Shown here one piece after another: positions 4,400 to 18,180 of a stretch of DNA of 64,000 nucleotides. Within the stretch, counting starts at the first letter, position 1, and each line of letters begins with the position of its first letter. The stretch covers positions 62,001-126,000 of the forward strand of contig JAJDDI010000052.1 in the NCBI GenBank assembly GCA_029260375.1. Direction: 5' to 3'. The notes under the pieces are model-generated. The model made no database searches. It was not told where the DNA came from and was given only the letters and a program-made list of their open reading frames with translations. This DNA comes from Phycisphaerales bacterium. GTDB taxonomy: Bacteria > Planctomycetota > Phycisphaerae > Phycisphaerales > UBA1924. Made by a program: the position numbers and the translations under genes.

Positions 4400-6052
4400 T
4401 CACAAGGAACGACGCCATGTGTCGTGAACGGCAAACGCCGTATCTGACTTCAGTGTGTCGCTCCGATAATGGCACCCGCGCGACTCACGGCGCCACAGCG
4501 CGGCCTGGACAATCACACTCGCGACGAGCAAGATGTTCTGGAGTTGCCAACCCGGTGCGTGCTTCGCGGTTCGATGCGTCAATCTCGCTTGCCAAACGTT
4601 GATTCGCGCCGCCGTTGCCGCCAGTGCTTTCTCCTCACGCACGATGCCCACGTGGTCCCACATCGCCGAGCGAAGCGCGGGAAGAGTCAGATTTGGGTCG
4701 GCGCTCTCGCCGCGGCGCCCATGTGAATCGTCCGCGTTTCGGGGAGACTTATTCTGGGGTGGAATATCGGTTCCGCCACGAGCCCGTAGATCTTCGGACT
4801 CTCTGCGCGGCTGCTCCCCCGCGGAGCGACCGGCGGCCTCACCCATGACGAGCCCCTCGAGAAGTGAGTTGCTCGCCAGACGATTCGCTCCGTGGAGGCC
4901 GGTGGAGGCGACCTCGCCCGCGGCGTACAGACCCGGAATAGTCGTACGACCGGCGAGATCTGTCGCGACGCCGCCGATCAGATAATGTGCCGCAGGTGTG
5001 ATGGGCACAAGATCAATGGTGGGATCCAGCCCATATCGCGCGAGCATCGCCGTGATACCAGGAAACCGAGCCGCGAAGCGTCGCACATGGCGAGCGTCGA
5101 GGAACACTCGCCCTCGATCGCCGGAGCACTGCACGCTCACGATGGCCCTGCTCACCACGTCTCTGGGAGCCAGCTCGGCCAAGGGGTGCGTGTCGGCCAT
5201 GAATCGTCGTCCACGCCAGTCCACGAGATGAGCGCCCTCCCCCCGGACAGCCTCGCTGATCAGGTGTCGCGGCGATCCCGGCAGATCGAGCGTCGTGGGG
5301 TGAAACTGGATAAAGGCCATGTCGCTGAGCTGCGCGCCGGCCCGGTAGGCCATGGCAACGCCGTCACCAGTCGCGCCACAGGTATTCGTGCTCTCCTCAT
5401 ATGCCATCGAGGCCCCGCCGCAGGCGAGAACTGTCGCGCGAGCCCGGATGATGCGAAGCCCCTGATTCGGGTCGTGGACGATGACGCCGAGCACGGGCCC
5501 CAACAATTCAGGGTCATCGGGCGTCAGCAGATCGAGCACGAAACAAGAGCGGTAGACGGAAATCGACGGGTCGGAACGCACCTTCCCGATGAGGCAGTCG
5601 ATCAATGCCCTTCCGGTGGCGTCGCCATGCGCATGAACGATACGACGCCGCGAGTGTCCCCCCTCCAGGCCCAATGCGATGCCGTCATCACTGTCTCGAT
5701 CGACACACATCCCCCAGGCGATGAGCTCTTGCAGGCGCTGCGGACCCGTCTCTACGATGTGCCGCACGACATCCGGGTTGCACAAGCCCGCGCCTGTGGT
5801 CAGAGTGTCGGCGATGTGTCGAGCGGCAGAATCGCCACGGCCGATGGCTACGGCGACCCCTCCTTGAGCTCGGAATGTGTTTGTTTGCGAGCGCGAAGAT
5901 TTCGCGAGCAGCATGACTCTTCCGTGTGAGGCCGCCGCGATGGCCGCACGCAGCCCCGCAACACCCGCTCCGATGACGAGTGTATCCGTGGAATCCTCCG
6001 GCAACCGGTGCGAATCGACCGGGACCAAGTAGCGTTGCGCATCGACAATCAT
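4400..6052 (-). CDS. nadB: L-aspartate oxidase
   Basis: FAD enzyme that oxidises L-aspartate to iminoaspartate, the first step of de novo NAD synthesis; its product feeds quinolinate synthase (nadA, same strand upstream). About 550 residues. The N-terminal FAD motif is GAGVAG at residues 28-33; further family landmarks are RAQGGVAVA, HAHGDATGRAL, AAGEVASTGLHGANRLASNS, MWDHVGIVRE and the C-terminal RESRGCHYR. The frame stays open upstream to 6577, but that part overlaps the panE-like gene and has no protein character, so I place the start at ATG 6052. A hydrophilic linker of roughly 40 residues before the C-terminal helical domain is a little long. The 148-bp gap to the preceding gene is the largest in the run. 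Confidence 0.93.
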   Translation of the reverse strand: MIVDAQRYLVPVDSHRLPEDSTDTLVIGAGVAGLRAAIAAASHGRVMLLAKSSRSQTNTFRAQGGVAVAIGRGDSAARHIADTLTTGAGLCNPDVVRHIVETGPQRLQELIAWGMCVDRDSDDGIALGLEGGHSRRRIVHAHGDATGRALIDCLIGKVRSDPSISVYRSCFVLDLLTPDDPELLGPVLGVIVHDPNQGLRIIRARATVLACGGASMAYEESTNTCGATGDGVAMAYRAGAQLSDMAFIQFHPTTLDLPGSPRHLISEAVRGEGAHLVDWRGRRFMADTHPLAELAPRDVVSRAIVSVQCSGDRGRVFLDARHVRRFAARFPGITAMLARYGLDPTIDLVPITPAAHYLIGGVATDLAGRTTIPGLYAAGEVASTGLHGANRLASNSLLEGLVMGEAAGRSAGEQPRRESEDLRARGGTDIPPQNKSPRNADDSHGRRGESADPNLTLPALRSAMWDHVGIVREEKALAATAARINVWQARLTHRTAKHAPGWQLQNILLVASVIVQAALWRRESRGCHYRSDTLKSDTAFAVHDTWRRSL

Positions 6053-6200
6053 GTTGATTGCTTGCGCGTCGCGCCGGTGCCCGATCGACCCGGCGCCGTT
6101 GCTTCGCCAGCGACACATCGCACGACAACCGGGGCCGCTCCGACGGGTGGGCTGGCCAATGCGGGCGGGAATCGAATCGGCCGCTGGCTTGGGGGCGTGG

Positions 6201-7277
6201 TCACGAGTCAAGCGTCCTGCCGTGAGCGCCGACGAAGCCGGGCCGATGAACTGTGGGTCCGGGTACACAGTCCATTTCATGACGCAAGAAAACGCGCCAG
6301 TCGAACGAATCGATGAGCGATGCAATAATTTCGTGCGAGGGAACGGGCACGCCGATGCGGAGGGCGTGCGCGATGATCTGGCGGTTAAGCTGACCGATCT
6401 CACTCTGCCGCCCGCTCCGGATATCGCCGACCATGCTTGGCGTGTGCCTGCGTGCCGATTCGAGTACAGCCCACATCCGCTCGGCGATGGCGGGATCGAG
6501 TCCGACGCCCTCCGCATGGGCCACGGCGAGTCCCTCTCGCATGAGGCTGTCCACGATCGCCCGCGCGGGAGAATCAAGCACCTCGCCGATGGAGCTATCC
6601 GTCAGAGCTGCAACCGGGTTCATCGAGGCGTTGAGAACCCCCTTCTCCCAAACGTGCGTCTCGATCTGCTCCGTGGCACAGGTCTGCAGGCCGCTCCCGG
6701 TGAGGACCGCCGCCAGCGCACGGGCCGCGGGCAGATCGTCTGGATGTGGGCTGCCGATGAAGTGAGGCGGGCTGTTGAGCATCACCTCCGCGGTGTTGGC
6801 CGTCTTCCGGGACGCACCGAAGTTGAGCACCATGCGGAGCACCCGAGAGCACGCGAGCCGCTCCATCAGCTCCCGCCCCGATTCAATCCCGTTCTGAAAG
6901 CTCACGATGCAGGGGCGTGCTGTGGGCCCGGCCAGCTCATGCAGAATCGGACGCAACTCATCGGCCACGGCCCCGATTGCAGTCGTCTTGGTCGCCACAA
7001 ATACTGCATCGTAAGGCGCATGCTGCACGAGCATGTTGCAACTCGCCACGATACGCGGGTGGGAGGCTCCCCGGAGCAGACCTCTGACGACCGCGCCGTT
7101 CCGTCGCATGACCGCCGCCTGACCGGCATCACGAACGACGATCGTCACCGGCAGCTCTCGCCCGAGCATCGCGGCCAGGCTCAGGCCCATGGCCCCGGCG
7201 CCGATCACGGCGACGCCCAGGGCAGGGATTCCGATGCGGTCCGGGGAGCTCACTGCCATACCCCATCGGAGGAGCAC
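6201..7277 (-). CDS. panE: 2-dehydropantoate 2-reductase family (ketopantoate reductase-like)
   Basis: NADPH-dependent reductase family of the coenzyme A pathway (ketopantoate to pantoate). Rossmann motif VAVIGAGAMG near residues 22-31; KTTA after the sheet; catalytic-type Lys and Asn in WEKGVLNAS followed by NPVAAL; substrate-side Ser in GDIRSGRQSE. 358 residues, slightly longer than usual (about 300-330) because of a C-terminal tail. The GTG at 7277 has GAGGGTGG upstream and overlaps the end of nadA by 28 bases; ATG 7259 is the alternative. Placed between nadA and nadB, it could act on another 2-oxo acid in this organism; the exact substrate is an inference. Confidence 0.82.
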   Translation of the reverse strand: MLLRWGMAVSSPDRIGIPALGVAVIGAGAMGLSLAAMLGRELPVTIVVRDAGQAAVMRRNGAVVRGLLRGASHPRIVASCNMLVQHAPYDAVFVATKTTAIGAVADELRPILHELAGPTARPCIVSFQNGIESGRELMERLACSRVLRMVLNFGASRKTANTAEVMLNSPPHFIGSPHPDDLPAARALAAVLTGSGLQTCATEQIETHVWEKGVLNASMNPVAALTDSSIGEVLDSPARAIVDSLMREGLAVAHAEGVGLDPAIAERMWAVLESARRHTPSMVGDIRSGRQSEIGQLNRQIIAHALRIGVPVPSHEIIASLIDSFDWRVFLRHEMDCVPGPTVHRPGFVGAHGRTLDS

Positions 7278-8587
7278 GGACTGCCACCCTCGACGATCTC
7301 GATCATCCTCCGCATCGCGGCCCGAGCGTGACGCACCAGTTCCGTCCGCTCTTCCGTATCGAGCCGGTCGCGTGCCGCGGTGCTTTCATTGACGACATCC
7401 CCGGGCAGAACGCGATTGATGTCGGGCGGCGTGCCGCGTCGCAGAAGGTCGAGCACCCCGGCCAGGTGGGGCGGATCGTTCCGGCTCATCGTCGCGCACC
7501 CGCATCCTGCCACGCGCAGCAATCCCGGCTCGTCCACCGCGGCAAGGTGTTCGACCCGTATCTCGTGCAGCGCCGCCTGCTCGCGCAGATTGCGGACGAA
7601 ATGCCCTTCTGTGCCGATCGCGAAGCGTGATCCGGGCTCGGCGCCCATCACGGCTCCCCACAAGTAACTCGTGCTACCGCATCCGTCGGCCGCTCGCACG
7701 ACCTCAAGCGAGGACTCCGGATGCACGAGCACGGTCCAGCCACGATCGTGCCAATACCGGACATGCTCGGGTCGAAAAACCGAATGCACACCGCAATACG
7801 CGCCCCACAGAAGCAGCTCGGCGCGGTCGATGCGGCGCCAATCGTCGGCCAGGGACTCCGCTTGGCCGATCCCGGGCAAAATAGCAACGCGATCGGGGGA
7901 GATCCCGATCCGATCAGCGGCGTTCTCGCCCAGACGCCTATCCGGCACGAAGAGGACTCTCTCGGATCGCTTGCGGGCCCAGTCGAGCACCAGGGCGGCG
8001 TTCGAACTCGTGCATGTCGCCCCGCCGGATCGGCCCGCCATCGCTTTGATGCGCCCGGAGGTGTTCATGTACGCGACCACAACGAACTCGTCGCCGTACC
8101 GCTCGGAGAGCTGGTCGATGATGGGGGCAACGGCGTCCTCCTTGGCCATCATCTCCATCGTGCATCCCGCCTTGGGATTGGTGATCCAGACTTCCTGGTG
8201 CGGTTGGGCGAGGATGGCTACGGCCTCGGCCATGAAGTGAACGGCCGATTGGACGATGATCGATGCCCGCGGGGACCGTTCGCCGAGCAGTGCGAGGGAA
8301 TAGCTGTCCCCTATCGAGCCGCCGTAGCGTTCGACGAGCTTGACGATCTCGCCGCCCATGTAGTAGTGGGCCATCAGGAGCAATGAGTCGCCGAAGTGAC
8401 TGACGGCGGGCTTGACGTACCGATCGAGCCAGGGCAGGACGGTCTCGGGCTTGCGATCCGGCAGGGCGAGGTATTCCTCGGCGTATGACCGGAACTCGGG
8501 CTGGTACCAATCGAGCGGCAAGTCCGACTGGCACAGGTCGATCCCCGGTCTGATGGTGATGCCGGAACTCGGCAGACAAACTGACAT
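7250..8587 (-). CDS. nadA: quinolinate synthase
   Basis: [4Fe-4S] enzyme that condenses iminoaspartate with dihydroxyacetone phosphate to quinolinate. Motifs: AHYYMGGEIVKL near the N-terminus, VHFMAEAVAIL, then three conserved cysteine sites AGCTMEMMA, TCTSSNA and the C-terminal GCGCATMSRNDP that ligate the cluster; VHPESS is also typical. 445 residues, longer than the short bacterial form. Start ATG 8587 has GAGG eight bases upstream. It lies on the same strand as RIC-type Fe-S repair, which fits the oxygen- and NO-sensitive cluster. No nadC is present in the window. Confidence 0.93.
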   Translation of the reverse strand: MSVCLPSSGITIRPGIDLCQSDLPLDWYQPEFRSYAEEYLALPDRKPETVLPWLDRYVKPAVSHFGDSLLLMAHYYMGGEIVKLVERYGGSIGDSYSLALLGERSPRASIIVQSAVHFMAEAVAILAQPHQEVWITNPKAGCTMEMMAKEDAVAPIIDQLSERYGDEFVVVAYMNTSGRIKAMAGRSGGATCTSSNAALVLDWARKRSERVLFVPDRRLGENAADRIGISPDRVAILPGIGQAESLADDWRRIDRAELLLWGAYCGVHSVFRPEHVRYWHDRGWTVLVHPESSLEVVRAADGCGSTSYLWGAVMGAEPGSRFAIGTEGHFVRNLREQAALHEIRVEHLAAVDEPGLLRVAGCGCATMSRNDPPHLAGVLDLLRRGTPPDINRVLPGDVVNESTAARDRLDTEERTELVRHARAAMRRMIEIVEGGSPCSSDGVWQ

Positions 8588-8644
8588 GCTGCGACCTCAC
8601 TGGTAGACCTGGATCACGCTTCGCTTCCACGGCGCCCGCCGCGG

Positions 8645-10392
<1,748 letters not shown>

Positions 10393-10956
10393 TCACCCTT
10401 CCCGACTGGCACGTAGTCCGCGCCGGGCGGCCATCTCCTGCCCGATCTCTCGAATCTGCGAAGCGTCCAGGGCGCCCTCCGCGGCAGGGAACAGCGTCTC
10501 GTCCTCGAAGGCGATGTGACGCGCATACAGGCGATCGAGTGCATCGAGGTCTCTCAAGATGAACTCCCCTTCACCCTTGCGCAGGCGCCCCTCGAGCAGC
10601 CAGGCATCGATGCGTTCATCGATCGCCGCGTACAACCGCTCCGCCTCGTCATGCTCCCGCTCCAACCGCTCCGCCTCACGGAGCAGCCCGCCCAGAGACT
10701 CACCCCCGACCGCGCGAAGACGCGGGAAGAGCGACTCCTCTTCGTCTTCCGTGTGCCGCGGCGCCGCCTCGCGGAAGTACCGCTGCGCCGCCCGCAGCGC
10801 CGCCCCCGCCTCGTCGTCGAGTGGCCCGGTGGAACACCGCTCCAGAGCGCGCCGGATGACAGCGAGAAACCCCTCGATACGCCGATGACAGTCGCTCATC
10901 AACGCGAACGGGGTGTCGAATCCCGGTTGACCCTGTGTGCCCAATGACACCGGCAT
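10393..10956 (-). CDS. hemerythrin (HHE) domain protein
   Basis: 187 residues forming a four-helix hemerythrin-like fold. Di-iron ligand-type residues are spread as expected: SDCHRRIEG, PRHTEDEEESLFPRL, EREHDEAERLY and YARHIAFEDETLFP. Such proteins bind O2 or NO, or store iron. The start overlaps the stop of the RIC gene (TGATG), so the two are probably translated together and act in the same stress response. Partner and ligand cannot be told from sequence. Confidence 0.88.
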   Translation of the reverse strand: MPVSLGTQGQPGFDTPFALMSDCHRRIEGFLAVIRRALERCSTGPLDDEAGAALRAAQRYFREAAPRHTEDEEESLFPRLRAVGGESLGGLLREAERLEREHDEAERLYAAIDERIDAWLLEGRLRKGEGEFILRDLDALDRLYARHIAFEDETLFPAAEGALDASQIREIGQEMAARRGLRASREG

Positions 10957-11684
10957 CAGACGCTCTCACCTTTGGCGCCCGCCAACTCGAGTTCGATCGC
11001 GCGCGGAAACAGGATGCTGTTCTCCTTGTGCACGTGCTCGTGCGTGTCACGCTCGAGCCCGGCGAGCGCATCGAGCATTGCCAGGTATGTGTTGCAAGCG
11101 CCCGCGGGCGCCACGAATCCGTCGGTGAGCTCCCGCATGCTCGCAAGGTCTTCGCCGCTGCCCTCGTGCTCCGCTTCCATCTGCCGGATCGGGTCGGCGA
11201 CGGATCCGCAGTGGGACAGCGATTGCCCCGTGCCCGAATCCAACGCACGGATCATCGGAAATAGGATCCGCTCCTCCTTGAGCATGTGAGCGCTCATATC
11301 CGAGGCGAACGAGGCGACGACATCTCGCACCCGCAGCAGCCGCGGGTCACGCTCCCCGTGGGCCGACGCGACCTTGTTGGACAGCAGCACAAGCCGCGGC
11401 AACTCGGCCCTCAGGTAGGCGTGATGCGACTGCTCGATCTTGTCGGCAAGCGCCGTGAGGCTCATCCCGGCGGGGCTTGCATCTCCATCCGTGCCACCGA
11501 GATCACATTCGCGCAACCGCTCCATGATCACCGAGAGGTCCAGCCCCTTCTCTCGGCACGCGTTTCCGAGTGGCGTCTTCCCCCCACAGCAGTAGTCGAT
11601 CCCCACCGACTCAAAGACACGAGCCCGAGCGGGGTTATCGCGGACAAGTTCTCCAACGGATTTACCATGCTTGATTGTGGACAT
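10956..11684 (-). CDS. ric: iron-sulfur cluster repair di-iron protein (RIC/ScdA/YtfE family)
   Basis: Repairs Fe-S clusters damaged by nitric oxide or oxidants. The N-terminal ScdA_N-type segment is GKSVGELVRDNP...YCCGGKTPL with the paired cysteines; the C-terminal hemerythrin-like domain has the histidine/glutamate set SHHAYL, SAHGER, SAHMLKEERILFP, EAEHEGSG and HEHVHKENSILFP. ATG 11684 is chosen because AGAAAGG lies nine bases upstream and the protein then begins MSTIKHGKSV; the frame extends 12 codons further upstream without a good start. First gene of the minus-strand operon, behind the promoter at 11731-11760. Confidence 0.92.
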   Translation of the reverse strand: MSTIKHGKSVGELVRDNPARARVFESVGIDYCCGGKTPLGNACREKGLDLSVIMERLRECDLGGTDGDASPAGMSLTALADKIEQSHHAYLRAELPRLVLLSNKVASAHGERDPRLLRVRDVVASFASDMSAHMLKEERILFPMIRALDSGTGQSLSHCGSVADPIRQMEAEHEGSGEDLASMRELTDGFVAPAGACNTYLAMLDALAGLERDTHEHVHKENSILFPRAIELELAGAKGESV

Positions 11685-11705
11685 CGTGGGGACCTTTCTG
11701 TATAC

Positions 11706-11760
11706 AAGGCATTCATGCACACTTGCTTTGATTGTACCCCCGAGATACTATCAGCGTCAA
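11706..11760 (-). promoter_or_regulatory. ric operon promoter with dyad operator over the start site
   Basis: Read on the minus strand: TTGACG (11755-11760) as -35, 18 bases, TACAAT (11731-11736) as -10. Just downstream, over the expected +1, lies the dyad AAG-GCAT-tc-ATGC-aca-CTT (11706-11724). The element fits an Rrf2-type repressor (NsrR-like sites are AT-rich dyads around an ATGC/GCAT core) and sits between ric and the divergent Rrf2 gene. Binding is inference; the promoter hexamers and dyad are visible. Confidence 0.65.
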
Positions 11761-11781
11761 AGGACAGGGAGATTTGCCGCC

Positions 11782-12252
11782 ATGAGGCTCTTTAACGACG
11801 CGACCGAGTACGCCCTTCGAGCGACGGTCTGGCTCGCGCATCAACCGCCGGGGCCTTACAAACACCAGACGATTGCGGACGCGACACGCGCGGCCCCCGG
11901 GTATCTCATCAAGGTGCTCCAGGCGCTCGCGAAGGCCGGGATCGTCTCGGCCCAGCGCGGGAGCGCGGGGGGATTCACCCTGGATCGGGACCCGGGAACA
12001 CTGAGCGTGCTCGAAGTCATCTCGGCGATCGATCCGATCGAACGGATCCGTTCTTGCCCCCTTGATCTTCCCGAGCACGCGGCGTCGCTCTGTCCGCTGC
12101 ATCAGCGCATGGACGAGTCCCTGGCGAGTCTCGAGCGCGACTTCGCCCGGACCACGATCGCGGAGCTCGCCCAACACGGGGCGTTCCCGACCAACGTCTG
12201 CAATGCGCTCTCGTCGTGCTGTAAACCCGGTTCAGGCCGTGATCTACCGTAA
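11782..12252 (+). CDS. Rrf2-family transcriptional regulator (NsrR/IscR-like)
   Basis: 156 residues. Begins MRLFNDATEYALRA as in IscR/NsrR; winged helix with recognition region around residues 28-48 (TIADATRAAPGYLIKVLQAL) and wing RGSAGGF. Cysteines at 92 and 104 and a His at 107 correspond to IscR cluster ligands, but the middle cysteine (98) is Glu98/His99, so cluster ligation must differ from E. coli IscR or NsrR. Three further cysteines lie near the C-terminus (140, 146, 147). Divergent from ric and followed by hemerythrin and nnrS genes, so an NO- or Fe-S-sensing repressor is the likely role. Confidence 0.85.
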   Translation: MRLFNDATEYALRATVWLAHQPPGPYKHQTIADATRAAPGYLIKVLQALAKAGIVSAQRGSAGGFTLDRDPGTLSVLEVISAIDPIERIRSCPLDLPEHAASLCPLHQRMDESLASLERDFARTTIAELAQHGAFPTNVCNALSSCCKPGSGRDLP

Positions 12253-12262
12253 GGGGATGGTC

Positions 12263-12802
12263 ATGAACGAACACCCGCACCCACCGATCAAGCGACACGC
12301 CGCCCTGGCTCCGCTGAGCCGCGACCACTATGTAGGGCTCGTCCACGCCCACCGGCTCATGAAAGCGGCACAGAAAGGCCGGGTCGCACGCCACAAGGCA
12401 CTCGCCGATTTCATCGACGCGTGGACCACCGAGATCGCACCACACTTCCAGGATGAGGAACGCCTCCTGCTGCCGCTGATCTCTCTGGCCGAAGACCGCC
12501 GCCGACTTCTCGAGGAACACGCCAGCATCGAGCGAGCGGTTGAGCACGCGCGGACGCTCCGCAAGAGCGTGGACCCGGACCCCGCGTCCGTATCGGACAT
12601 GGGGCGCCTGCTGGAGGGCCACATCCGCTGGGAGGAACGCGTGCTCTTCAACCGTGTGCAGGACGGGGCGAGCTCCGAGCAACTGTCGGGTCTTCAGGAA
12701 TGCACGAGCCAGGTCGAGCGCTCGCGCTCGCGCAGCGGGTCACGCTCGGGGCCACCAACGAGGACCAGCACCGGAGGGTCGCCCGCAGGTGGCAATGCGT
12801 GA
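12263..12802 (+). CDS. hemerythrin (HHE) domain protein
   Basis: About 179 residues. HHE-type sites: LSRDHYVGLVHAHRL, PHFQDEERLLLPLI, EEHASIERAV, GHIRWEERVLFNRV. The last 40 residues are a Ser/Arg-rich low-complexity tail. ATG 12263 is preferred over 12257 because AAGGGG is then six bases upstream. It follows the regulator stop by ten bases and its own stop overlaps the GTG of the nnrS gene, so it is the second gene of a regulator-hemerythrin-nnrS operon. Probable O2/NO binding protein. Confidence 0.83.
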   Translation: MNEHPHPPIKRHAALAPLSRDHYVGLVHAHRLMKAAQKGRVARHKALADFIDAWTTEIAPHFQDEERLLLPLISLAEDRRRLLEEHASIERAVEHARTLRKSVDPDPASVSDMGRLLEGHIRWEERVLFNRVQDGASSEQLSGLQECTSQVERSRSRSGSRSGPPTRTSTGGSPAGGNA

Positions 12803-14457
12803 GCGGCCTTCGGAACAATCCCGGGATGTTGCCGCCCGGTTGCTTTCGAGCCACCCCTCAGACGCGGGCCATTCTGAATCGCTATGGGCTCCGCGTGGCC
12901 ACCTGCCCGCCCGAGACCGACGCCCGCTTCGCGCGAGTTCATTGTGTCGCGCCGCAGAACCTGACCGGGCAGATCCGGGCGATATCCGACCACCCCGGAA
13001 GCCGCGATCGCGCCCGTCGTCAGCCCGATGGTGATCCGCGCCCCCGTCTCACCGATGCCATCTACCGCCCGTTCTTCCTCGCGGGCATGGCGGTCGTGCT
13101 GACCGCCGGCGCCGCCTGGGGTGTTCTGCTGCTCTGGAAGATCGGGGCCGCGGGCTCCTTTACGGGTGTTCGCGTGCGGGAGGTCAATGCGCACGGTCAA
13201 GCACAGGTGATGGGCTGGGTTGGCTTGTTTATTATGGGATTCGCGTACCAGGCCTTTCCACGTATGTGGCGGGTCGGCCTGCCGGCCCCGAGATTGGCGC
13301 TCGCCGTGTGGCTGGCGACGCTCTTGGGGATCGCATCACGCAGCACCGCGATGCTGTTCGGGGCGGATCCCTGGGCGCCGCCGGTGCACACCGCCGGGGT
13401 CGTGATTCAGGTCGGATCGGTCGGAGTATTCGTCACGCAGATCTCGCTCGCGTTCCGCCGAAGCCGCCAACCCCTCAAGCCGTATGTCGGGTTCATCTTC
13501 GCCGCGATGGCGTTCATGCTGATACAGGCGATCTACAGCGGATGGCACAGCGCCATGCTCATGAGCGCCGCCGACCGGGATTCGCTGCTGGCACAGATCG
13601 GGACTTTTCAGGCCCCGCTACGCGATCTTCAGATTCACGGCATGGCGATGCTCATGATCTTCGGTGTCGCTCTGCGCATGTTCCCGGTGTTCTTCGGGGT
13701 CCCCGAGGTGAGCGATCGGCGGGGCTGGTGGGCGCTCGCCATCCTGATCGCAGGCGTCGTCCTCGAGATCGCCGTGTTCCTGGCTTTCCGGCTCACCGGC
13801 GTTCAGTCTATCGCTGCGGGGATGTTGCTGCCCTGGCTCGCGCTACCGATCGGCGCCGGCTTGCTCGTTGTGCCGTGGCGGTTGTGGCGACCAATCCCCG
13901 AGCCCTGGGATCGTAACCGCAGCGGGAAGTTCGTCCGAGTCGCGTTCGCGTGGCTCTTCGTTTCCCTGACGATGCTGCTGCTGTTGCCTCTCTACCAGAT
14001 CATCAGCGGGCTGCCATTCAGCCACGCGTACCACGGGGCCGTCCGCCACGCGATCACGGTGGGGTTCGTCTCGATGATGATCGTGGGCATGAGCTCGAAG
14101 GTTGTGCCGACGCTGCGCGACATCGATCGTGAGAGACTGCCCGCGCTGTGGACGCCCTTCGTGCTCATCAACGCCGGATGCCTGCTGCGGGTTTTCTTGC
14201 AGATCCTGACCGATTGGCACGCGGGAGCCTTCCTGCTGGTGGGGATCAGCGGTCTGCTGGAGTGGTTGGGGTTGGCCGTCTGGGCCGCACACCTCTCCGC
14301 GGTCATGCTGGGCATCGGTCGATACAGGCCCGGAGCGCCGGGGCACGCGGGATCTGCGCCGAGCCCCAGCGTGTGCGCTTGTTCATCGTCCATCCCCGCG
14401 ACAGCCCGCGCCGACCTCGAACACCTCAACCAGTCCACGGCCGGGGCTCGAGCATGA
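12799..14457 (+). CDS. nnrS: NnrS-family membrane protein with N-terminal extension
   Basis: Heme- and copper-containing polytopic membrane protein linked to NO tolerance. Residues after about 85 carry the family pattern: IYRPFFLAG, REVNAHGQAQVMGWVGLFIMGFAYQAFPRMW, LQIHGMAMLMIFGVALRMFPVFFG, AVRHAITVGFVSMMIVGMSSKVVPTL, with about 12 hydrophobic helices. The cytoplasmic N-terminal part (TPQTRAILNRYGLRVATCPPE) resembles the short ScdA_N/DUF542-type segment, though it lacks the CC pair. The GTG at 12799 overlaps the previous stop (GTGA) and has AGGTGG upstream; ATG 12826 is an alternative. The stop overlaps the next ATG. Confidence 0.85.
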   Translation: MSGLRNNPGMLPPGCFRATPQTRAILNRYGLRVATCPPETDARFARVHCVAPQNLTGQIRAISDHPGSRDRARRQPDGDPRPRLTDAIYRPFFLAGMAVVLTAGAAWGVLLLWKIGAAGSFTGVRVREVNAHGQAQVMGWVGLFIMGFAYQAFPRMWRVGLPAPRLALAVWLATLLGIASRSTAMLFGADPWAPPVHTAGVVIQVGSVGVFVTQISLAFRRSRQPLKPYVGFIFAAMAFMLIQAIYSGWHSAMLMSAADRDSLLAQIGTFQAPLRDLQIHGMAMLMIFGVALRMFPVFFGVPEVSDRRGWWALAILIAGVVLEIAVFLAFRLTGVQSIAAGMLLPWLALPIGAGLLVVPWRLWRPIPEPWDRNRSGKFVRVAFAWLFVSLTMLLLLPLYQIISGLPFSHAYHGAVRHAITVGFVSMMIVGMSSKVVPTLRDIDRERLPALWTPFVLINAGCLLRVFLQILTDWHAGAFLLVGISGLLEWLGLAVWAAHLSAVMLGIGRYRPGAPGHAGSAPSPSVCACSSSIPATARADLEHLNQSTAGARA

Positions 14458-16589
14458 ATCGCCGCGCCGAAGACCCCGGCCCGAGGCGAGTCCCGCTTCC
14501 CCAGGTGAAGCCCCCGAGCTCCGAACCACCACGGCGCAACCGCTTCGCGCGCCGCCGGGCCGCAACTCTCCTGGGCGTCCACGTCCTGGCCGCCGCCCAC
14601 ATCGCGCACTGGCGTATCAGCGGCAAGACTCTCGCGCCGCTCGAGTTCAACGAGGTGATGCATACGCTGGAGCTGGGAATCGTTACCGCCGGGTTCACGT
14701 TGATGGCACTCGCGGTTCTCTCCGTCGGGGTGTTCGGTCGTTTCTTCTGCTCTTGGGGATGCCATATATTGGCGCTTCAGGACCTGTCCGCCTGGGTGCT
14801 GGCGAAGCTTCGGATCCGTGCCAAAGCCGTGCGATCGCGGGTTCTCTTGCTCGTTGCCCCGGGCGCGATGCTTTATATGTTTGTCTGGCCACAGGTGAGC
14901 CGGATCGCAGAAGGCCGGGCGATGCCCGCCTTCCACCTTCGCGATGACGCGGGCGGCTGGGCGTCGTTTGTCACCGACGACTTCTGGCGAAACCTCCCCG
15001 ATCCGCTCGTCGCCCTCATCACCTTTGGTGTGTGCGGGTTCGCGATCGTGTACGTCCTCGGGACTCGCTCCTTCTGCCTCTACGCCTGCCCGTACGGTGT
15101 CATCTTTGGGATCATGGACCGCCTGGCCCCCGGACGCATCAAAGTCGATCCGGACAAGTGCACGAGTTGCGGCGTATGCACGGGGGTCTGCGAGTCCCAC
15201 GTCCGCGTCCATTCAGAGATTGCGCTCCACGGCTCGGTCGTGGATCCTGCCTGTCTGAAGGATCTTGACTGTGTGAGCGCCTGCCCTGAGCAAGCGCTGT
15301 CTTTCGGCTGGACCCGCCCGTCTCTCCTTCGTTCTCTGCGCCCGGGCCGACGGAACCTCCCATACGACTTCACGCTATTCGAAGACATGCTCATGGCGGC
15401 GGTATTCCTCGGGTCCCTCGCGGTTTTCCGCGGACTCTACGGGGCAGTTCCGTTTCTTCTAACGCTTGCAATCGGCGGTATTCTTGCCTACCTCTCGGTA
15501 CTGGCGCTGCGCCTGCCTCGCAATCAGAATGTCCGGTTCAACCAGTTTCAACTCAAGCTCAAGGGTCGCATCACTCGCGCGGGCGTGGTGTTCGGTGTCT
15601 TGGCTATCGGCGCTGGCGGGTTCGTGGGGCACTCGGCGTTTATCAGATATCACGAGTTGATGGGCCAGCATGCGCTCGACAGAGCAACAACGCTCTACCA
15701 ACGTGGTGACGACGCCGATAGAGTTGAACGGCTCGCCCGTGAAGCCCGCCGGCATCTCGAGTTGTGCGAGCGGTGGGGCCTGATAACCGCTCCTGGGCAT
15801 CACACTCGCATGGCTTCGGCGTGTTGGGCGAGCGGTGACATCGGGGCCGCAGAATCAAGCTGGCGTTTCGCGTACGAGCGATTCCCTGAGAACTACGACG
15901 CCCGGCTCGACCTCGCTGCCTCGTTCATGCGCCGAGGTAGAGCGGACCTGGCGTCGTCCGTGCTGCACGAGGTGACACAAGCAAGAGAGCATTCTACGAA
16001 GGACCGGGCGCGTTTCGCGCACTACCGGGGTTCCGCGTGGATGAGTCTGGGGGCGATCGCTGTTGCAGAGAATGACCCGGCCTCGGCGGCGGCCGCCTTC
16101 GAGGCGGCGAGCCGCGAGCAACCTCGCGATGGAGCGCCGCTCCTCGCCCTGGGTGAACTCCGGATGATGTCCGCCGATATCGAGGGCGCCGCGGAATGCC
16201 TCAGAGCCGTGGTTGACATCGATCCCCACAACTCGCAGGTGCTCGTGAACCTCGGCCTCCTTGAAGCCCGCCTCGGGAGCCCCCAGGATGCTGCTCGCCT
16301 GTTTCGCCAGGCCGCGGAGCTGACCCGGGACAATCCTGCCATCTGGACCGATCTGGGGGCGATGCTCCGAGACCTTGGTGAGCGCCATGAGGCCGAGCAG
16401 TTCTTTGAAGCCGCCCTACTGGCCGACCCGGACTTCGTATCGGCGCACCGTCAGCTGGGACGCCTGCTCTCTGAGATCGGGCACGGCGATGAGGGCGCCG
16501 AACATCTCCATCGTGCGGCGGCGTTGGAGGGCTCGCTGTCGCCGAGCAATCGCGAATCACCTGTCGGAGCGGCGCCGTCGGGGCCGTAG
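14454..16589 (+). CDS. polytopic 4Fe-4S polyferredoxin (NapH/NosR-like) fused to TPR domain
   Basis: 711 residues. Membrane part with two NapH/NosR-type motifs, C99-S-W-G-C103 and C208-L-Y-A-C212-P; then a ferredoxin-like pair of clusters: C236-x2-C239-x2-C242-x3-C246 and the incomplete-looking C267-x5-C273-x3-C277-P. Two more hydrophobic segments follow near 310-345 and one near 385. From about residue 405 to 690 there are TPR-like helix pairs. Family knowledge: NapH/NosR proteins move electrons from quinol or flavoprotein to nitrogen-oxide reductases. ATGA overlap with nnrS marks one transcription unit. The TPR fusion suggests a scaffold for a partner; the partner is not in the window. Confidence 0.8.
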   Translation: MNRRAEDPGPRRVPLPQVKPPSSEPPRRNRFARRRAATLLGVHVLAAAHIAHWRISGKTLAPLEFNEVMHTLELGIVTAGFTLMALAVLSVGVFGRFFCSWGCHILALQDLSAWVLAKLRIRAKAVRSRVLLLVAPGAMLYMFVWPQVSRIAEGRAMPAFHLRDDAGGWASFVTDDFWRNLPDPLVALITFGVCGFAIVYVLGTRSFCLYACPYGVIFGIMDRLAPGRIKVDPDKCTSCGVCTGVCESHVRVHSEIALHGSVVDPACLKDLDCVSACPEQALSFGWTRPSLLRSLRPGRRNLPYDFTLFEDMLMAAVFLGSLAVFRGLYGAVPFLLTLAIGGILAYLSVLALRLPRNQNVRFNQFQLKLKGRITRAGVVFGVLAIGAGGFVGHSAFIRYHELMGQHALDRATTLYQRGDDADRVERLAREARRHLELCERWGLITAPGHHTRMASACWASGDIGAAESSWRFAYERFPENYDARLDLAASFMRRGRADLASSVLHEVTQAREHSTKDRARFAHYRGSAWMSLGAIAVAENDPASAAAAFEAASREQPRDGAPLLALGELRMMSADIEGAAECLRAVVDIDPHNSQVLVNLGLLEARLGSPQDAARLFRQAAELTRDNPAIWTDLGAMLRDLGERHEAEQFFEAALLADPDFVSAHRQLGRLLSEIGHGDEGAEHLHRAAALEGSLSPSNRESPVGAAPSGP

Positions 16590-16704: not shown

Positions 16705-18180
16705 GTGAAACAACTCCACAACTCGGATCGCCGCCCAGTCATCATTCAGGGCGGCATGGGCGTGGGCGTCTCGGGCTGGCGTTTGGCCAGGGCGGTCTCG
16801 ACCGTGGGTCAGCTCGGGGTGATCTCCGGCACGGCCATCGACGTCGTCATGGTTCGGCGCCTCCAGTCGGGTGACATCGGTGGGCACATGCGCCGGGCTC
16901 TCGAGAACTTCCCCATTCCCGGTGTCGCGGCCAGGATTCTCAAACGGTACTTCGTGCCCGGCGGAAAGCCCGCTCACGTGCCGTTCAAGTCCAAGCCCTT
17001 GCCTTCGGAGGCCCCGTCCCAGACGGCCGTCGAGCTCTTGGTCGCGAGCAACTTCGCCGAAGTCTTCCTCGCCAGAGAAGGGCACGATTCGCCGGTGGGC
17101 ATCAACCTGCTCGAGAAGATTCAGGCGCCCACGCTTCCCTCGCTCTACGGCGCCATGCTCGCCGGCGTGGCGGTGGTGCTGATGGGCGCGGGTATCCCCC
17201 GCGCGATCCCGGGCGCGCTCGATCGCCTCTCCAGGGGCGAGCCGGTGGAGCTCGTGCTGGATGTCCACGGCGCCGACCCTGACGACAAGTTCATCACCCG
17301 CTTCGATCCCGCGACAGTTTGGCCCGAGGGCATCGCGAGCCCAACGGGCTTGCGCAGACCTGATTTTTTTGCGATCGTCTCATCCGCGACGTTGGCAAGC
17401 ATGCTGGCGAAGAAATCGAGTGGCCGGGTAGACGGATTCATCATCGAGGGGCCGACGGCCGGGGGACACAACGCCCCACCACGCGGGCCGATGCAACTCA
17501 GCGCTGAGGGTGAACCGATATACGGCGAACGAGATCTCCCCAAGCTGGATGCCATCCGGGCGATCGGGCTCCCATTCTGGCTCGCGGGCTCGTTCACCAG
17601 CGCGGAGCGAGTCGCCGAGGCGATCGCTCTGGGCGCAACGGGCGTGCAGGTCGGAACCGCGTTTGCCTACTGCGAGGAGTCAGGACTGGACCCTGGGCTC
17701 AAAGACCAGGTGCTCTCGCTCAGCCGCGCGGGGATGGCACGTATCTTCACCGACCCGGTGGCCTCACCCACAGGCTTCCCCTTCAAAGTGGCGCCGCTGG
17801 CTGGAACTATCGCCGACCCCGCGACACCACCGCGGACCGCACGGATCTGCGACCTCGGCTACCTCCGCCATGCGTACAAGAAGCCCGACGGGACGCTGGG
17901 GTGGCGCTGTCCCGCCGAGCCCGTGAAGGACTACGTCGCCAAGGGCGGCAATGAGGCAGATACGAACGGCCGCCAGTGTTTGTGCAACGGTCTGATGGCC
18001 AATATCGGTCTGGGCCAGCTCCGAGGCGCCAACGGCGAGCAGGCCGAGTTGCCGCTGGTGACCTCTGGCGATGACGTCGCCGATATTGCCAGGTTCTTGA
18101 GTCCGTCCGCCACGTCGTACACGGCATCGCAGGTCGTGGATGAACTCTTGAAAGGTGTCGCCGGGAATACCGTGGCCTAA
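16705..18180 (+). CDS. nitronate monooxygenase-like FMN TIM-barrel protein
   Basis: 491 residues. FMN-dependent oxidoreductases of this family oxidise nitronates. N-terminal IIQGGMGVGVSGWRLA, SGTAIDVVM, the loop EGPTAGGHNAP containing the family's catalytic-type histidine, WLAGSFTSAERVAEAIALGATGVQVGTAFAY near the FMN phosphate site, and a C-terminal region with several cysteines (ICDLGYL, WRCPAEP, QCLCNGL). Longer than the classical 320-350-residue NMO, matching the long bacterial subgroup. GTG start with AGGAG about nine bases upstream. Placed after NO-response genes, so detoxification of nitro compounds is plausible; the substrate is unproven. Confidence 0.82.
   Translation: MKQLHNSDRRPVIIQGGMGVGVSGWRLARAVSTVGQLGVISGTAIDVVMVRRLQSGDIGGHMRRALENFPIPGVAARILKRYFVPGGKPAHVPFKSKPLPSEAPSQTAVELLVASNFAEVFLAREGHDSPVGINLLEKIQAPTLPSLYGAMLAGVAVVLMGAGIPRAIPGALDRLSRGEPVELVLDVHGADPDDKFITRFDPATVWPEGIASPTGLRRPDFFAIVSSATLASMLAKKSSGRVDGFIIEGPTAGGHNAPPRGPMQLSAEGEPIYGERDLPKLDAIRAIGLPFWLAGSFTSAERVAEAIALGATGVQVGTAFAYCEESGLDPGLKDQVLSLSRAGMARIFTDPVASPTGFPFKVAPLAGTIADPATPPRTARICDLGYLRHAYKKPDGTLGWRCPAEPVKDYVAKGGNEADTNGRQCLCNGLMANIGLGQLRGANGEQAELPLVTSGDDVADIARFLSPSATSYTASQVVDELLKGVAGNTVA

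Follow-up and report, generated by a model that had tools for sequence, protein, structure and literature searches.

Three gene types, dnrN/ytfE (ric), nnrS and norB, are recurrent members of nitric oxide (NO) regulons and are targets of the regulator NsrR (PMC1274295). NsrR, as described in Escherichia coli and Streptomyces coelicolor, has an Rrf2 fold and an operator placed at the promoter. Crystal work on ScNsrR showed a dimer on a site of 23 bp, in which bases are contacted about 4-8 bp from the centre and the wings touch the DNA at about 10 bp (PMC9338935). In Thermus thermophilus, an Rrf2-family NsrR lies beside nsrS, a ric-like gene with a ScdA domain, and its operator, CTTGACCNNGGTCATGG, is unlike the proteobacterial one; it is thus already known that an Rrf2/NsrR protein next to a ric-like gene can have an operator of its own (PMC5748679). 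RsrR of Streptomyces venezuelae, a [2Fe-2S] redox sensor, recognizes an 11-3-11 inverted repeat at hundreds of sites, and sites in one intergenic region are proposed to control both rsrR and the divergent gene (PMC5015018). NsrR homologues have been listed by BLAST in magnetotactic bacteria, including Planctomycetota (PMC11014258). In the mats of PMC10866078, other phyla are reported to be without nsrR. PMC1274295 mentions neither planctomycetes nor Verrucomicrobia, and the titles and abstract openings of the open-licence PMC literature describe no Rrf2/NsrR operator for Planctomycetota or Verrucomicrobiota.

The locus described here lies in a 64-kb stretch of DNA from a Phycisphaerales bacterium, which was analysed as a whole and is called the window. 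A 97-bp intergenic gap (11685-11781) separates ric, which starts at ATG 11684 on the minus strand, from an Rrf2-family gene, which starts at ATG 11782 on the plus strand. The ric gene (10956-11684) encodes an iron-sulfur cluster repair di-iron protein of the RIC (ScdA/YtfE/DnrN) family (TIGR03652 228.4 bits, cut-off 204.7). Its stop is overlapped by a hemerythrin-domain gene (10393-10956, minus strand; PF01814), and 3 bp after this follows a tyrosine phenol-lyase-like gene (8911-10389, minus strand; TIGR02618 767.7 bits, cut-off 720.7), which may belong to the same NO-type operon as ric. On the plus strand, the Rrf2 gene (11782-12252) is followed by a second hemerythrin-domain gene (12263-12802; PF01814), by nnrS (12799-14457; PF05940 56.2 bits, cut-off 28), which overlaps the stop of the preceding gene, and by a gene for a 4Fe-4S ferredoxin-type protein with TPR repeats (14454-16589; a presumed start, the domains having been found in the longer reading frame 14148-16589). 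The organism's own genome (G000; 3.39 Mb in 99 contigs) has one ric, one nnrS and no norB with a PF22085 domain, and three more of its genes match Rrf2 at E ≤ 0.001.

The Rrf2 protein is assigned to its superfamily by PF02082 (85 bits, cut-off 30), by TIGR00738 (92 bits, cut-off 73.3) and by an Rrf2 fold. Its AF2 model has a pLDDT of 90.4, and Rrf2 structures lead the fold matches. The nearest named relatives come from Phycisphaerales and other Planctomycetota, and then from Verrucomicrobiota; one of the near relatives, L036, is filed as a cyanobacterial MAG. In a tree of 86 proteins, which included E. coli IscR and NsrR, both on very long branches, 31 Rrf2 rows including the window protein are monophyletic with support of 100/97. 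We call this group clade A.

Several features of the neighbourhood were seen in passing. Beside the ric operon, the minus strand at 4400-8587 carries a set for quinolinate synthesis: nadB (TIGR00551 over its cut-off), a gene for a PanE-like reductase, and one resembling nadA that stays below its cut-offs. After the ferredoxin-type gene lies a gene for a nitronate monooxygenase-family protein (16705-18180, plus strand; PF03060), which is weakly FabK-like, and a second weakly FabK-like gene (7167-8669) is found near the clade-A regulator of L038. Tyrosine phenol-lyase homologues also occur near ric in L035 and near the rrf2 arm in L055.

The gap contains two predicted promoters. The one that faces ric, TTGACG (-35, 11755-11760) with an 18-bp spacer to TACAAT (-10, 11731-11736) on the minus strand, is present as the initial annotation gave it. 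The other was overlooked there: on the plus strand, TTGCTT (-35, 11723-11728) and TACTAT (-10, 11746-11751) are separated by 17 bp and face the Rrf2 gene. The two overlap on 38 bp (11723-11760), and the -35 of each adjoins the -10 of the other. Since the second promoter would drive the Rrf2 arm, autoregulation is expected. GTG 11720 was rejected as the ric start codon because the homology of relatives starts at ATG 11684. An RNA hairpin in the ric leader was rejected by inspection: the core has a loop of 2 nt, and the gap holds no inverted repeat with arms of at least 8.

The dyad with a GCAT-tc-ATGC core, which had also been noticed, was confirmed as GCATTCATGC at 11709-11718, the sole exact copy in the 64 kb. 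We read it as the core of an operator, GC-ATTCAT-GC, centred at 11713.5 and ending 4 bp before the -35 of the Rrf2-gene promoter. The dyad had been thought to cover the predicted start site of ric. With 7 nt assumed between the -10 and the start, this site falls near 11724 and the 10-bp dyad itself at +7 to +16, so the statement does not hold for the dyad. It would hold for the fuller operator, which probably extends over about 11698-11729, somewhat beyond the sequence-model matches at 11702-11727 (R1, a model trained on this very site) and 11705-11727 (R2, from which the site was held out). Taken singly, these elements are near chance. A promoter scan of 6 kb of the single sequence found two against 0.8 (sd 1.1) in shuffles, and the gap has three perfect 4+4 dyads against a shuffle mean of 2.5, with 42% of 2000 shuffles reaching three. 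The case therefore rests on conservation.

Inspection of the region upstream of the clade-A rrf2 genes showed a shared block of GC-N6-GC, 4 bp, a TTGAC-like element, 17 bp and TAnnnT. The pattern GC-N6-GC-N4-TT[GT], which had been defined by eye from these loci before they were counted, is found in 26 of the 30 testable clade-A members, against 1 of 50 Rrf2 genes outside the clade, and in 4.4% of shuffled upstreams. Member 31, L051, with no more than 28 bp upstream, was left out of this count. Among the 26 matches, L061 is off register and L048, L049 and L062 lie one 8-bp repeat downstream; the pattern is missing in L038, L052, L057 and L059. In a MAFFT alignment of 28 loci that was not steered by the pattern, and in which L061 and L038 are aligned at the core by their second half only, C 11718 is invariant, and T 11712, A 11715, G 11717, T 11724 and G 11725 are conserved at 90% or above. 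The core also stands at the standard place in G263 (L121), which is in no model. The clade member G043 (L007) has neither the operator nor a divergent NO gene. From their sequence, we take the conserved patterns to be an operator and both promoters.

The 8-bp period of the repeats creates rival symmetry centres, and the block can also be read as three GC steps of period 8 with a centre elsewhere; the symmetry values behind this reading are approximate, L062 and L038 having been out of register. Six of the eight loci that matched on both strands favour the centre at 11713.5, that of the dyad first noticed, and L037 and L040 are symmetric 4 bp away from it. In L061 the operator consists of two arms of 14 bp that mirror each other perfectly about the centre corresponding to 11713.5.

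Model R1 was built from 23 sites, including that of the window; L040 and L054 were omitted as near copies, and L038, L051, L052, L057, L059 and L061 are also outside it. Of 31 clade-A sources R1 matches 26, of which 23 are rows that it was trained on; of the 19 other-clade sources tested (out of 50 other-clade loci) it matches none. Outside the training rows it matches three of eight clade-A sources (L040, L052 and L054, two of which are near copies of training rows). Since R1 includes the window site, a second model, R2, was trained on 19 sites that exclude the window and the three relatives closest to it (L034-L036). At E ≤ 10 over the 3.39-Mb genome, following a loose first pass with 77 candidates, R2 gave a single match, which is the window site (16.6 bits, E 0.0325). 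It matches five of 11 sources (the window, L040, L052, L054 and, weakly and on the other strand, L059) and misses L034, L035, L036, L038, L057 and L061; the sites of the nearest relatives are thus divergent. A scan of 397 genomes of the class with R1, under strict filters that lose weak sites, gave 12 genomes at E ≤ 0.05. The four best, G066, G046, G062 and G000, carry clade-A Rrf2 genes; the rest are G143 (E 0.006) and seven weaker matches. Four of the ten genomes with a close clade-A match are among the twelve, and G018, G035, G043, G064, G093 and G263 are not.

The divergent Rrf2 protein had been named as the natural candidate for the binder, and the distribution of the motif supports this. 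Where ric is the adjacent divergent gene, the core is present in 16 of 17 clade-A loci and in none of nine from other clades, and the element GGAYRTC in 3 of 17 and 9 of 9, respectively (Fisher 3e-6 and 7e-5). These values ignore relatedness and use a pattern picked by eye, and the held-out model R2 is therefore the firmer evidence. By inspection, GGAYRTC is part of a ACCTGGAYRTCCAGGT-like dyad that abuts the -35 in the other Rrf2 clades. Within clade A, the core is kept opposite norB (L037, L040, L048) or nnrS (L049), and also where no NO gene lies opposite (L056, L058, L060 and, one repeat on, L062). Since the motif stays with clade A whatever the divergent gene is, it goes with the regulator. 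At L071, L074, L081, L092, L103 and L105, which belong to other clades and have a divergent ric, the ACCTGGAYRTCCAGGT-like dyad, seen by eye, often has a second copy past the -10.

The expectation that the same dyad would recur at other NO genes was borne out in relatives, at norB, nnrS and ric. The organism's own genome has one ric, one nnrS, no PF22085 norB and one operator match, so a single site would serve both arms. The NO genes were called by BLAST to the window proteins, with Pfam for L037, L038, L040, L048 and L049, and the rest by eye from translations; the divergent genes of L038 are merely a cytochrome c and COX1-like pair. In seven clade-A members the operator is not faced by any NO gene; NO is thus not its sole context. 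In the subclade of L058 and L060-L062, the same operator may be put to another use. At L058 (5608-8864), a chorismatase/RidA-like gene and a DUF1549/DUF1553 gene follow the regulator, with no NO gene opposite, and the neighbours of L060-L062 look similar by eye. The divergent ric of L036 (4638-4880) is matched by the window ric in two pieces only, as if diverged or broken.

The two promoters differ in their distribution. Of 22 loci with an NO-type gene opposite, 17 have a minus-strand -35 (GTCAA or GTCCA) 29-35 bp after the plus-strand TTG, as against none of the seven loci without such a gene (Fisher 5e-4, relatedness uncorrected; L045, at a contig edge with its divergent gene unknown, and L051 were left out). 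This -35 tracks the NO-type divergent gene and would therefore belong to it. The operator core and the plus-strand promoter, to judge from their persistence where that gene is missing, belong to the Rrf2 gene. The strict minus-strand -35 was not found in L034, L035, L036, L038 and L076 despite the divergent gene there.

The Rrf2 protein is not a canonical NsrR. Its context is NsrR-like, and it shares with NsrR the fold, the acidic residue at position 9 and two of the three cluster cysteines. It differs in three tested features. The NsrR equivalog NF008240 gives 47 bits against a cut-off of 182. The NsrR operator gATGyAT-N5-ATrCATc (PMC1274295) is found in 0 of 30 clade-A upstreams. The middle cysteine, at position 98, is absent from the alignment of all 31 clade members, in which S, A, T, E, K and D are the commonest residues there (30 of 31 shown) and conserved His99 and His107 are present instead. 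C92 and C104 are kept in all 31. Across 84 aligned proteins, C92, C104 and H107 occur in every one, H99 in 83, and E9 in 83 with D once. T. thermophilus NsrR, unlike clade A, has three cysteines (PMC5748679), and the core of its operator was not found in the 30 clade-A upstreams.

RsrR is the closest solved protein by sequence (E 1e-17) and also the best Foldseek match. In VIA-align, CymR, RsrR, IscR and NsrR lie within 1.6 Z of one another, and the fold therefore does not choose between them. The RsrR cluster reportedly has ligation of a Cys/Glu/His type. Its first-helix ligand, which we take to be a His, aligns with Arg13 of the window protein; Glu9 is kept there, and the RsrR ligand set as a whole is not. 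The ligands of IscR are C92, C98, C104 and H107; the window protein has three of these four, C92, C104 and H107, aligned with E. coli IscR, and lacks C98. The IscR model gives 34.4 bits against a cut-off of 207.55, and the neighbouring genes differ. The hundreds of 11-3-11 sites of RsrR (PMC5015018) also differ from the one GC-N6-GC model match in the window genome. It is possible, although we hold it to be rather unlikely, that clade A and its sister clades are a sensor type of their own. In such a sensor, C-X6-H-X4-C-X2-H together with Glu9, a set that 83 or 84 of the 84 aligned proteins retain (most of them from Planctomycetota, Verrucomicrobiota and Acidobacteriota), would coordinate a Rieske-like two-Cys/two-His cluster, or some other metal, for sensing NO or the redox state, and the operators at the shared ric/nor/nnrS promoters would have evolved separately in each clade.

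Our preferred reading, which we regard as probably correct, has one Rrf2 dimer on one operator that two opposed promoters share; the dimer would keep both arms repressed as long as its cofactor is not attacked by NO or a related signal. The Rrf2 protein (11782-12252) would bind as a dimer centred at 11713.5. By analogy with ScNsrR, its helices would contact both GC steps and its wings the A/T to either side. It would cover the predicted ric start (near 11724; the core lies at +7 to +16) and extend as far as the rrf2 -35 (11723-11728). Occlusion of both promoters would be the simplest outcome, giving a self-limiting repressor that holds down the ric-hemerythrin-tyrosine phenol-lyase arm and the rrf2-hemerythrin-nnrS-ferredoxin arm and releases them together. 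NO or a related redox signal would damage the metal cofactor and free the DNA; NO handling and Fe-S repair would be turned on, more repressor would be made, and the system would be reset. Binding, repression and the metal cofactor are what we infer for this protein. The sign of control and NO as the signal are suggested by geometry and gene content: ric, nnrS and norB, the gene types targeted by NsrR, are positioned at the clade-A operator.

Among the alternatives, the one that fares best, though we consider it improbable, keeps the switch as described with general redox or Fe-S status as the signal in place of NO. The kinship with RsrR, a redox sensor, the ligand candidates unlike those of NsrR and the seven clade members without an NO gene opposite would all agree with this. 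The RIC family repairs Fe-S clusters damaged by several stresses, which counts in the same direction. Against it speaks the repeated presence at the operator of ric, norB and nnrS, the gene content of an NO regulon (PMC1274295).

Slightly less likely again is a dual sign of control, in which Rrf2 would be a repressor of ric and, from a position immediately before the -35, a class II-like activator of its own arm. For Thermus NsrR, activation of some promoters and repression of another have been reported (PMC5748679). An operator centred at -44.5 relative to the predicted rrf2 start suits an activator, and in the unsteered alignment the -35 stands at a fixed short step from the core. However, the conserved block extends into the -35 (the second T and the G of TTG at 90% or above), which fits occlusion, and the dyad of the other Rrf2 clades, as seen by inspection, adjoins the -35 with another spacing.

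Boxes for FNR/DNR (at two stringencies), NnrR, HcpR, NorR, NsrR (at two stringencies) and Thermus NsrR each gave 0 matches in the 30 clade-A upstreams, and a loose RirA-like pattern gave one (L052), the HcpR, NorR and RirA patterns being those we presume for these proteins. That a regulator of the FNR/DNR, NnrR, NorR, HcpR or canonical NsrR type binds the conserved block is thus hard to credit: the neighbourhood is of the kind they control (PMC1274295), but the motif changes with the Rrf2 clade while the target is constant. A chance dyad beside an ordinary promoter would agree with the chance-level count in the single sequence, but it can practically be dismissed, since the held-out R2 picks only the window site from the genome and position and spacing are conserved in relatives (26 of 30 in clade A versus 1 of 50).

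The reading of one Rrf2 dimer on a shared operator would provide a concrete and testable operator and regulator for NO handling in Planctomycetota and Verrucomicrobiota. The Rrf2 clades would form a natural series in which the regulator and the operator change together and the targets stay. The comparison also brings out a conserved Cys/His set of an unusual kind in the sensor domain of these regulators.
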